From contig CALYOP010000007.1 of NCBI GenBank assembly GCA_945266285.1, positions 83,308-147,307 of the forward strand: a stretch of DNA of 64,000 nucleotides, given 5' to 3'. The notes beneath the pieces are model-generated. The model ran no database searches, was not told the origin of the DNA, and saw nothing but the letters and a program-made list of their open reading frames with translations. Below, piece after piece: positions 58,108 to 64,000 of this stretch (its first letter is position 1; each line of letters opens with the position of its first letter). A program made the position numbers and the translations under genes. The stretch comes from an uncultured Commensalibacter sp. Lineage in GTDB: Bacteria > Pseudomonadota > Alphaproteobacteria > Acetobacterales > Acetobacteraceae.

Positions 58108-60276
58108 ATGAAAAAAATAAAATATATTGTCTCTTTGCTTACTTTAATGCCTTTTCAGTTAAAAGCTCAGACAACAGCTTCTACTGAAAAATCTGGAGAT
58201 AATACTGAAAATATTATTGTTACCGGTCAAAGACAAGCCCAAGGGTCGGCAGCAGTTATGAGCGTTCCAAAAGTTGATTTGGGACCTTTAGGAAACTTAA
58301 ATGCTGAAGATGCTCCTTTTTCTATTTTTTCCGTATCGCATGATACAATTGTGAATCAGCAGGCTAGAAATGTTAATGATTTAATGAAATATATGCCTTC
58401 TGTTCAACTTGAGGTCCGTGGAACAGCAGGAATGTCCCGACCGCAATCCCGTGGTTTTGAAGGGGATGTTACCGCTAATAGTCGTATGGACGGATTAAAC
58501 ATTACGACAACAACCCCCTATCCTGCTGAAATGTTCGAAAATTTACAATTACTGAACGGATTAGCAGGTGCAATGTATGGACCGCAAAATCCTGCTGGAA
58601 TTTTTAGTTACCAATTAAAGCGTCCCACGGATCGACGCATGGAAAATCTTGCTATTTATTATGATTCCGAAGGAACGGTTAACGAACATACGGATATTGC
58701 TGGAAGATTAGGAAAAAATAATTGGTTTGGTTACCGACTTAATCTTTTGCATGGTGATGGTACTGCTTTTGTAGATCATAGCTGGATTCGTAGAAATTTA
58801 GTCAGCGGTGATTTTGATATCCGTCTTTCATCCAAAACAGTTATCGAATTGGATGCAAGTCATTATACCTATGATGAAAGAGGAACCCCCGCTACTTTTT
58901 CTTATAATAATGCTATACAACTTCCGTCTACTCCCGATACAAGCAAACCTTATCTTGGTCAAAGATATGCAGGTTTTAACACGGAAACCAATAGTTTTTT
59001 AGGAAAAATTAAACATCAGTTTAATAAAAACTGGCGATTAACTGCTGGTGGCCTTTATCAAGACGCAGTTCGCAAAATGTTTAATAATAATAATTTGATC
59101 ATTAATAATCACGGCGATTACCAACAAAGTATTGTTGCTGCGGGACAAGCAAATGATTTCCAAGTTGGAAGTAATTTTGCTTATATTAACGGCACGGTAC
59201 ATACCGATTTTATTAAACATGATCTGATATTAGGTACAAATGGTTATATCCGTGGCAATTATAATCCAACACATACGGAAAATATTACACTAGGCACAAG
59301 TAATATCCACCATCCGCAAGCTTTTCCAGGCTATCAACCTCACGGTTGGGGACGCTATCAATCTGGACTTACGCAACAACAAGCTTTGATTGCTGGAGAC
59401 ACCATTCATTTCAATAAACAATGGGCTATTATGAGCGTTTTTAGTTGGAGTTGGCTCAGTAGCGATAGTTGGAACATAAAAGGACAAAAAAAATCTCATG
59501 ATTCCAGAGAAGCCGCTTTTAGTCCTACAACCAGTTTAATTTATCATCCGCTTGAAAATCATACGGCTTATTTTACATGGGCAAAAAGCCTCCAAGCTGG
59601 TGATACAGCACCTGCAACAGGTGTAACCAATCCCAACCAAATCATGGCTCCTTATCGTAGTGAAGAATTTGAGATTGGTTATAAAGTCAAATTTAATCAA
59701 ATTTATTTAAATGTGGCTGCTTTCCGTATGACACGCCCTTATGCCTTTACTGATCCAAAGACATCAACTTTTTCAGTTGCAGGTGAGCAAAGAAACTACG
59801 GTATCGAATTCCAAGCCTCAGGACAAATTAATGATAATTTGTCAATCCTTGGCGGCGTAACCTGGTTAGATGCACAATTGGGAAAAACGGGAACTGAGGC
59901 GACTTCTCATAAACAAATCGTTGGTGTTCCCCCTGTGCAAGCAAACTTATTGATAGATTATCGTTTGCCGTTTAAGCATAACCAATTGTTCTATGGAATA
60001 GCATTAAATGTCAATCTACATTATACTGATCGACGCGCTGCCAATAACTATAATACCACTTTTGCAAATGGATATTTTACTACAGACCTTGGGTTACGCT
60101 ACCCATTCCGTGTCTATGAAACACCTTTAGCTGCGCGATTCAATGTCAATAACGTTACGAATAAACATTATTGGCAATCCATTTATCCCAACTCTATAAA
60201 TGGTGGGACAGCAAATAATAGTGCTTATGCAGGACTTCCAAGAACTTATCAGTTTTCGCTTGAAGTTAATTTTTAA
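58108..60276 (+). CDS. TonB-dependent (siderophore-type) receptor
   Basis: Signal peptide, TonB-box-like ENIIVTGQRQ, plug domain (VNDLMKYMPSVQLEVRG, GLAGAMYGPQNPAG), C-terminal Phe (SLEVNF). Confidence 0.9.
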   Translation: MKKIKYIVSLLTLMPFQLKAQTTASTEKSGDNTENIIVTGQRQAQGSAAVMSVPKVDLGPLGNLNAEDAPFSIFSVSHDTIVNQQARNVNDLMKYMPSVQLEVRGTAGMSRPQSRGFEGDVTANSRMDGLNITTTTPYPAEMFENLQLLNGLAGAMYGPQNPAGIFSYQLKRPTDRRMENLAIYYDSEGTVNEHTDIAGRLGKNNWFGYRLNLLHGDGTAFVDHSWIRRNLVSGDFDIRLSSKTVIELDASHYTYDERGTPATFSYNNAIQLPSTPDTSKPYLGQRYAGFNTETNSFLGKIKHQFNKNWRLTAGGLYQDAVRKMFNNNNLIINNHGDYQQSIVAAGQANDFQVGSNFAYINGTVHTDFIKHDLILGTNGYIRGNYNPTHTENITLGTSNIHHPQAFPGYQPHGWGRYQSGLTQQQALIAGDTIHFNKQWAIMSVFSWSWLSSDSWNIKGQKKSHDSREAAFSPTTSLIYHPLENHTAYFTWAKSLQAGDTAPATGVTNPNQIMAPYRSEEFEIGYKVKFNQIYLNVAAFRMTRPYAFTDPKTSTFSVAGEQRNYGIEFQASGQINDNLSILGGVTWLDAQLGKTGTEATSHKQIVGVPPVQANLLIDYRLPFKHNQLFYGIALNVNLHYTDRRAANNYNTTFANGYFTTDLGLRYPFRVYETPLAARFNVNNVTNKHYWQSIYPNSINGGTANNSAYAGLPRTYQFSLEVNF

Positions 60277-60537: not shown

Positions 60538-61972
60538 ATGGATGATATGTCGACCGAAGAAATAGATCAAAGTGATGAAAAACAAAGCACCGTTCAATCT
60601 ACCTATACAGAAACATATACTGAACAGAGCGAGGATAAAAAACATATTTGATCTTGAATCGATAAAACAAATCGCTACCCAGGAAAGTAATACTTCTCCT
60701 CTTGAACCGCTATCCTATACGCACGAACATGAATTGGAAAAAAATGTCGGTGCGTCTATGACAACAGAAACATCTGTTGTTCAAGAAAACACTGTCGAAG
60801 CAACAGAAATCGATTCAACGCCTCAAGATCCGGCCCTTGTTAGCGACGATAAAACGGCCTATCTCAAAGGGAGAACCATATCTTTCATTGGTGACAGTAT
60901 AACAACTTTTGCAGGATATAATACTGAAGGTAATGTAACTTATTACCCTGCTTATGATCTTCAGAATGTAAATCAAACTTGGTGGCAACAACTTGTTGAG
61001 AAAACGGGAGCTAAGTTATTAACAAATGATTCTTATTCCGGCTCATGCATAGCACGTCTTAATGAAGGTAATTTGCAAACGCGTTTGAATGTTATCGACC
61101 CGCAAACAGATTTATGTCTCGTGATGATGGGTGCAAACGATACAACGGTCCAAATCCCACTTGGTAATTTTGATCCAACAGCTTCTCAAGATACTTCTAC
61201 CTTTTATGGAGGGTTATGTAACGCTGTAACCAATCTTGCTAAAAATTATCCGAATACGAAATTTGTTTGGATTACTCCTTATCATTTCTTTAACAATATT
61301 GCCCCTCAAATATCTAAAAAAGCAAAAACCAAACGCGTAAGAGATCTTAATTTTCGGTATTCAAATCGGATATCTCGAGATTACAACAATTATACCTTAA
61401 TTGATCAAAGTGCATGGCAAGGTAAACAAATTCATCAAATTGGAATTATTACCAATACAGATGCAAATGTTGGTAATGTAAGAGTCATGTTAACGACCAA
61501 CCCTAATAGTGATGATTTTAAGATTATCAAAAAAAAAGATATTTTTACGATGACTGGGGTCTGGTGGTATAATCTAGGCTGGGATGTAGGACCTAATGAA
61601 TATCTATCAATTCAACCTATAAAGAATAATCCTTTACCAGGAGCTTTCACTTATTGTGAAGCGCCATCACAATCAGGCAATTTTTATTTCTATAATAATG
61701 AAACAGCCAGCTGGCAAACAAGTCAGGGCGATCTCAATATCGGAATCTCAATTAATACAGAACGTATGGCTAATCAAAAACCAAATCCTTACACAGATGC
61801 AATGGTAAAAGTATTGGATCATTATGGTATTGATTACATTGATCTTAGAAATCTTGATATAACTGAAGAAAATCAACATTCCTATTTTGGAGATGGAATT
61901 CATCCCAATGCCGCTGGAGCAGCTTTGATTTTCGAATATATTTATAAAGTATTAAAAGATAAAATCCGATAA
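60538..61972 (+). CDS. SGNH/GDSL-type hydrolase; N-terminal frame uncertain (ORF track 60572..61972)
   Basis: SFIGDSITTFAGY (block I), MMGANDTT (block III), DGIHPNAAG (block V). The 60538 frame closes at 60651 but joins the downstream frame if one A of an A6 tract (60637-60642) is removed. Confidence 0.7.
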
Positions 61973-62063: not shown

Positions 62064-62406
62064 AAGTTTTTTGATTACGTAAATTCATTTTATTTTTAAA
62101 ATAACACGCATTTTCGATCATCTTTTTTGTTCAATTTATTGTTATCTAATAATATTTAAAAAAATTAGGCATTGCAGAATATTGCAATTTCATACAAATT
62201 TCGATATTCTAAACGTTAACAATTATTAACATTTTAACTTTTATTTAGGTGATTAAAATAACATATTTTAGGAGTATCCTACGATTTTCTTTGATGCCCA
62301 TTTAAGAATATAAACTGAATCAAACTTTATCATTTCATTAACAATTTTATTGAGATATATATCTTCAATTATTTAATTACAGACGTCATTGGTATAGGAA
62401 AGTGAA

Positions 62407-64000
62407 ATGTCGCTTTTCCAATTTATTTTCCATAATTTGTCATCTTTATATATAATATTCACAGCGATATTATGTGTTGGATTGGCAGCTATGTTTTCTT
62501 ATTTTCTAACGTTTAAAAAAGATAAAAAAACGAATCAATTGGCTTCTTCTGTTGATTCTAAAACAGAAATTACGTCCAAAGATCATAGCCCTCAAAATAA
62601 CAAAAAAGAGCTATCCGATCTCTTCCTTGATTCAACGGATGATCGAGAAGAATCGCTCGGCACATCTATTCTTTACCAGAAACAACCTAACGAAGAAGCA
62701 ACACCGACCCCTTCATCAGAAGAAAAAAACCTAATTCATTCGTCAGATAATTATGCAGAACAAAACGTTGATTCTGAAATAACTGATTCTAAAACATCCA
62801 TTGCTCCAGACACAACAATCCTAGAAGAGCATAATGAAACCAAACCGGTTGAAGAAACACCAGTTATTAATACAACTACGGAAAATCATACTGTCGTTAT
62901 TGATGAATCCAAAGAAAATGAAAACGTAAGTAATTCTAATACGGACAAAGAAGCGCCATTTAGCACTTCTATTCTTCACCAAAATCACCCAATCGAGGAA
63001 AACGTATCCTCACCCCTATCGAATGAAAATAACCCGTTGCATTCGTCCGATTATTCAGAACAAAATATCAATTCTCAAGCAACCATTTCTGAAACATCCG
63101 TTCCTCCAGACACAACAATCCTAGAAGAGCATAACGAAACTGAACCGGTTGAAGAAACGCCAGTTATTAACACAACTATGGAAAATCATACTGTCGTTAT
63201 TGATGAATCCAAAGAAAACGAAAACGTAAGTAATTCTAATACGGACAAAGAAGCGCCATTTAGCACTTCTATTCTTCACCAAAATCACCCAACCGAGGAA
63301 AACATATCCTTATCCCTATCAAATGAAAATAACCTTTTTTATTCGTCCAATTATTCAGAACAAAATATCAATTCTCAAGCAACCACTTCTGAAACATCCA
63401 TTTCTCCAGACACAACAACTCTAGAAGAGCATAATGAAACCAAACCGGTTGAAGAAACATCAATTATTAACAAAATTACGAAAGATCATACCTTAGTTAA
63501 AGATCATACCTTAGTTATTGATAAAGCTAAAAAAAATATTGCAAGTTCAAATATTCATATTTATGAAGAAACAAACAAATTTAATAAATCTGTTCAAGAT
63601 GAAAGCGATGATATAAATCATCAAAAAGAAAACTCATTAACTGAACAATCTATAAAAACAGAAACTGCGCCATCGCATTCTAAAGAAATGCTCAATAAGG
63701 ATCAGGAATCAATGAATATATTCGAAGACCTACAGAATGAAAATGAATCAGAAATAGATGATGAAATGGAAGGGATTTCTACAATCCTTTATCAAGCACC
63801 AATAATTTCAACTTCTGAATCAGAAACAAAAACTGAGGTCAAAGAAGTCCCTAAACCCATTGAACCAGAACCTGTTATTAAACCAACAGAACCAAAACCT
63901 GTTCCTCAACCAAAAGAACCAGAACCTGCTCCTCAACCAAAAGAACCAGAACCTGCTCCTCAACCAAAAGAGCCAGAACCTGCTCCTCAACCAAAAGAGC
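62407..64000 (+). CDS. Membrane-anchored acidic repeat protein (partial, runs off window end)
   Basis: ATG at 62407 after a GGAAAG-like SD; MSLFQFIFHNLSSLYIIFTAILCVGLAAMFSYFLTFKKDKKTN (one TM followed by Lys), then a long Glu/Ser/Thr/Asn-rich repeat region and PQPKEPEPA repeats. No stop before 64000. Confidence 0.85.
   Translation, partial: MSLFQFIFHNLSSLYIIFTAILCVGLAAMFSYFLTFKKDKKTNQLASSVDSKTEITSKDHSPQNNKKELSDLFLDSTDDREESLGTSILYQKQPNEEATPTPSSEEKNLIHSSDNYAEQNVDSEITDSKTSIAPDTTILEEHNETKPVEETPVINTTTENHTVVIDESKENENVSNSNTDKEAPFSTSILHQNHPIEENVSSPLSNENNPLHSSDYSEQNINSQATISETSVPPDTTILEEHNETEPVEETPVINTTMENHTVVIDESKENENVSNSNTDKEAPFSTSILHQNHPTEENISLSLSNENNLFYSSNYSEQNINSQATTSETSISPDTTTLEEHNETKPVEETSIINKITKDHTLVKDHTLVIDKAKKNIASSNIHIYEETNKFNKSVQDESDDINHQKENSLTEQSIKTETAPSHSKEMLNKDQESMNIFEDLQNENESEIDDEMEGISTILYQAPIISTSESETKTEVKEVPKPIEPEPVIKPTEPKPVPQPKEPEPAPQPKEPEPAPQPKEPEPAPQPKE
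62641..63470 (+). repeat. 300-bp in-frame tandem repeat, about 3 copies (first copy more diverged)
   Basis: GACACAACAATCCTAGAAGAGCATAA-like block recurs at about 62809, 63109 and 63409, exactly 300 bp apart; CAAAAC/T...ATTCT also recurs at 62761, 63061, 63361. Confidence 0.9.
63904..64000 (+). repeat. 27-bp tandem repeat encoding PQPKEPEPA, about 3.6 copies to window end
   Basis: CCTCAACCAAAAGAACCAGAACCTGCT at 63904 and 63931, one-base variant at 63958, partial at 63985. Confidence 0.95.

Follow-up and report, generated by a model that had tools for sequence, protein, structure and literature searches.

The open reading frame starting at position 62407 of the window (the whole 64,000-nucleotide stretch analysed here, G000:C7:83308-147307) encodes the N-terminal part of a protein with one predicted membrane segment, a long acidic repeat stalk, and a Pro/Gln/Glu/Lys rod, and its missing C-terminus was recovered on another contig of the same genome. 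This C-terminus is a module that is usually carried by hydrolase-like proteins of acetic acid bacteria. We propose that the protein is a flexible, cytoplasm-facing, single-pass membrane tether for a non-enzymatic accessory module of glycan enzymes, which may recruit or regulate surface-glycan enzymes; we hold this reading at a probability of about 0.45, i.e., slightly below even odds. The protein architecture is well supported, and the mechanism is what we infer from it. An initial annotation had compared the layout of the protein with that of the cell-division protein ZipA, a guess that is replaced here by a lead towards surface glycans.

Gene structure and membrane topology

The frame is free of stop codons up to position 64000 (531 complete codons), and promoter-like matches 5' of it occurred at chance level only. 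The features of the gene within the window are as follows.

62396-62400, + strand: ribosome-binding sequence AGGAA, six bases before the ATG, read directly
62407-64000, + strand: 5' part of the coding sequence, continued on contig C5 of the same genome (L005:1-831)
62437-62514, + strand: single predicted transmembrane (TM) segment, about residues 11-36 (hydropathy)
62515-62529, + strand: KKDKK directly after the TM segment, predicting N-out/C-in
62572-62796, + strand: ~100-aa stalk repeat, an older copy that has diverged (38-39% identity of residues 56-130 to the later copies)
62659-62679, + strand: GTSILYQ, a TSIL(Y/H)Q-like motif that occurs four times in all
62787-63491, + strand: 300-bp (100-codon) tandem repeat, 2.3 copies with 91% matches, coding the acidic Ser/Thr/Asn-rich stalk (Tandem Repeats Finder)
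62962-62982 and 63262-63282, + strand: further TSIL(Y/H)Q-like motifs
63481-63517, + strand: 18-bp tandem repeat, KDHTLV twice (Tandem Repeats Finder)
63778-63795, + strand: STILYQ, the last of these motifs
63862-64000, + strand: 27-bp tandem repeat coding PEPAPQPKE of the rod (array called at 63862-63998 by Tandem Repeats Finder)

The hydrophobic stretch near the N-terminus reached a Kyte-Doolittle value of up to 2.32 over 19 residues, and hydropathy revealed no second stretch of TM-like strength later in the protein. There is no Lys or Arg before this segment, and KKDKK follows it; according to the positive-inside rule, the N-terminus is thus predicted to lie outside and the C-terminus inside, which bears out the topology that the initial annotation had read from one N-terminal TM segment followed by KKDKK. 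The paralogs of the C-terminal module have no evident TM or signal sequence and are presumably cytoplasmic, so that two lines agree in placing the C-terminus of this protein in the cytoplasm.

Acidic stalk and rod

Residues 41-480 are rich in Glu (14.5%), Ser (13.6%), Thr (11.4%), and Asn (10.9%), carry a net charge of -62, and contain neither Trp nor Cys. This composition and the repeat arrays agree with the earlier description of Glu/Ser/Thr/Asn-rich repeats followed by a Pro/Gln/Glu/Lys rod. All repeat periods (300, 18, and 27 bp) are multiples of three, which, together with the open frame, fits a translated gene. Nonsynonymous codon changes between the stalk repeats exceed synonymous ones (A-B, 13 vs. 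6), as would fit a spacer under weak constraint. The TSIL(Y/H)Q-like motif occurs four times in the stalk, also beyond the recent tandem array, and may be a docking motif.

A Pro-rich rod behind a TM segment might also belong to a TonB/TolA-like protein that spans the envelope with its rod in the periplasm and might serve a TonB-dependent receptor whose gene is located two genes upstream (58108-60276; Pfam barrel, E = 1e-36, plus plug). The PEP/KP rod indeed gave a weak NCBIfam TonB match (E = 0.0037, 17.1 bits vs. a cut-off of 265). However, KKDKK stands after the TM segment and not before it, the C-terminal module comes from proteins without export signals, and no TonB C-terminal domain was found with Pfam, all of which makes such a protein very unlikely. 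Membership in TonB was rejected on this missing domain and the wrong charge pattern.

Recovery of the C-terminus

Contig C7 ends at its position 147307, which is position 64000 of the window, and it does so inside the 27-bp repeat, indicating that a break in the assembly cut the gene short. The 55 bases at the end of C7 recur identically at the start of contig C5, in the same frame on both sides, and a scan of the whole genome found the 27-bp unit (up to two mismatches allowed) only at these two contig ends. C5:1-831 (L005:1-831) contributes 276 codons, giving a joined protein of at least 789 aa with the overlap collapsed, a lower bound because the true number of 27-bp repeats may differ. The gene start on C7 and the gene end on C5 are one gene, an architecture that is well supported, and the rod continues past the window as had been annotated. 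The following features were located on L005.

To about base 105: end of the rod
About 217-465: helical segment
About 466-828: beta domain
About 869-911: strong stem-loop terminator, common to the convergent pheT

The 3' neighbours of pheT in seven sister genomes are EamA-type genes and lepA, but lepA in the present genome (G000) lies elsewhere and adjoins two paralogs of the C-terminal module, suggesting that this region was rearranged.

The C-terminal module and its relatives

The recovered module comprises ~200 aa, with a helical segment and a beta part, and Pfam gave no match on the C-terminal half of the protein up to E = 10. As a query, the C-terminal domain retrieved a paralog in the same genome (E = 1.7e-7); the reverse search with this paralog returned the domain (E = 8.3e-7), another two paralogs, and relatives from six sister genomes. 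Although its identity to relatives is 12-21%, the domain scored 58.7 bits against a leave-one-out profile, whereas the highest score among 2000 shuffles was 13.0. Three paralogs are present in G000 (e.g., C1:183666, C1:185263, and C2:130898), two of which have glycosyltransferase genes at a distance of about 3-4 kb. No ortholog of the protein was found at E <= 0.001 in eight other genomes of the genus.

The module was detected in 29 of 398 genomes and 11 of 102 genera in a search across Acetobacteraceae (about 8% of sampled genomes), and in 31 of 397 genomes and 8 of 84 genera in an order-wide search, the two samples being overlapping draws that cover part of the family. It usually stands C-terminal to a GxSxG hydrolase-like domain in proteins with a length of about 440-530 aa. 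The beta part alone is found N-terminal to GT61 (L078) and to Glyco_tranf_2_4/GT92 (L077), and C-terminal to a domain that looks like GT2 by eye (L097), while L081 is a short stand-alone form of the module. Acetic acid bacteria thus possess an accessory module not named in Pfam, which occurs on hydrolase-like proteins and, as its beta part, on glycosyltransferases; we know of no member of this family with a known biochemical function.

The present protein differs from these hydrolase-like relatives, which share its module, carry a GxSxG domain at the N-terminus, and lack a TM segment; here, that domain is missing, and TM segment, acidic stalk, and rod stand in its place. A 19-residue hydropathy of 2.0 was reached in none of the 47 listed module-bearing open frames, which comprise this gene's own frame (L095) and 46 others, and among the sampled genomes the TM-anchored form was seen only in G000. 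These data point to a one-off, lineage-specific, new domain arrangement with a putative function.

The hydrolase-like domain of one paralog gave a weak NCBIfam lead to Asp2 (E = 0.011), a match far below the curated cut-off and to a domain that the present protein lacks altogether. Asp2 of the accessory Sec system functions in O-acetylation of glycoproteins (PMC5578698).

Several relatives were found in further contexts. Two tandem module-bearing hydrolase-like genes (L049:6956-9929) are located between a recG-like gene and lepA, with glycosyltransferase genes beyond lepA. A 793-aa paralog (L008:3171-5552), apparently with two hydrolase-like domains and the C-terminal module, adjoins a DUF707 gene. 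On pSymB of Sinorhizobium meliloti (L089), the hydrolase-like domain occurs without the module, inside an annotated glycosyltransferase cluster.

Beta part and similarity to CBM92

In most relatives, the beta part ends with W-E-x-F or a closely similar sequence. A beta-part profile of 19 sequences (A3) matched CBM92 structures in the PDB (7zoh, E = 1.3e-9; 7zoi, E = 4.6e-8) through several WExF lobes, and weakly matched fascins; the best single stretch of the CBM92 match has an i-E of 0.0089, so that the link to CBM92 is a good one but depends on the short repeated WExF motif. Only this broader profile gave a match: another profile (A2) found nothing significant in the PDB, and the protein's own C-terminal sequence alone had no CBM92 match there. 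A weak match of the own sequence to the designed protein Scone-R (E = 0.0062) was disregarded. The beta domain is probably a CBM92/fascin-type beta-trefoil, a fold that this copy would share with its relatives.

In CBM92, the sugar (glucosyl units) is bound by the Trp and Glu of this motif, and Trp-to-Ala changes reduce binding (PMC11039641). CBM92 has up to three such sites and is attached to secreted enzymes, whereas one site, as judged by eye, is kept by the relatives of the present module and none by this copy, which reads ATQF there. Both the profile match and the presence of the module on glycosyltransferases would suit a lectin-like protein, in which the trefoil itself binds a sugar, e.g., a lipid-linked polysaccharide intermediate held within reach at the inner leaflet by the stalk. 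However, both sugar-binding residues are gone at the one lobe that relatives keep, which argues against sugar binding at this site, and we consider this explanation improbable. This copy may even bind nothing that its relatives bind.

Comparison with ZipA and the proposed role

The initial annotation had likened the layout of the protein to ZipA. The order of parts stands, since both have an N-out TM segment (by prediction here), a charged region, a P/Q-rich linker, and a cytoplasmic globular domain at the C-terminus, but the analogy stops at this last domain. As recovered on L005:1-831, it belongs to the module associated with hydrolases and glycosyltransferases, an association unrelated to cell division, and it has no match to ZipA_C (PF04354). 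This family had no match anywhere in the genome, whereas E. coli gave one as the positive control of that search. Absence from eight sister genomes would also be odd for a division protein. ZipA membership was rejected, a ZipA-like membrane anchor for FtsZ appears extremely improbable, and the cell-division reading is contradicted by this domain, while the label of an undescribed membrane-anchored scaffold, whose layout was right, is still fair.

The failure to find orthologs in any of the eight sister genomes at E <= 0.001 makes a drifting, lineage-specific fusion a real alternative. According to this explanation, a duplicated module was recently placed behind a TM segment and repeats in this lineage, and the product is largely functionless. 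The low identity to relatives, the loss of WExF, the mostly nonsynonymous changes in the stalk repeats, and the neighbourhood rearranged relative to the sisters would all be expected from it. On the other hand, at least 789 codons form an unbroken frame, every repeat period is a multiple of three, the gene has both a ribosome-binding sequence and a strong terminator, and the core of the module has kept a score of 58.7 bits. We regard a drifting fusion as rather unlikely, though to be taken seriously.

The membrane tether remains our preferred explanation. The protein would be inserted in the inner membrane by its single TM segment, with the N-terminus outside and the remainder in the cytoplasm, where the long flexible acidic stalk and the rod would carry the C-terminal module. 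This module may derive from a cytoplasmic family of hydrolase-like proteins in acetic acid bacteria, having left the catalytic domain behind. The stalk would let it range over the cytoplasmic side of the membrane and bind a partner or a substrate of its enzyme-borne paralogs, and such binding could recruit, localise, or compete with surface-glycan-modifying enzymes. In a more specific and quite doubtful version, the accessory beta-trefoil displayed free of catalysis would position or inhibit surface-polysaccharide enzymes of the inner membrane, and the TSIL(Y/H)Q motifs would be docking sites for partners.

Upstream neighbourhood

A GDSL/SGNH hydrolase gene (60572-61972) is located upstream of the gene described here, and related genes are present in some sister genomes, the relative in G005 lying about 7 kb from pheT. 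Fragments of the C-terminal part of this hydrolase were also found where contigs C1 and C3 end, a sign that the assembly broke there as well, at a repeated gene.
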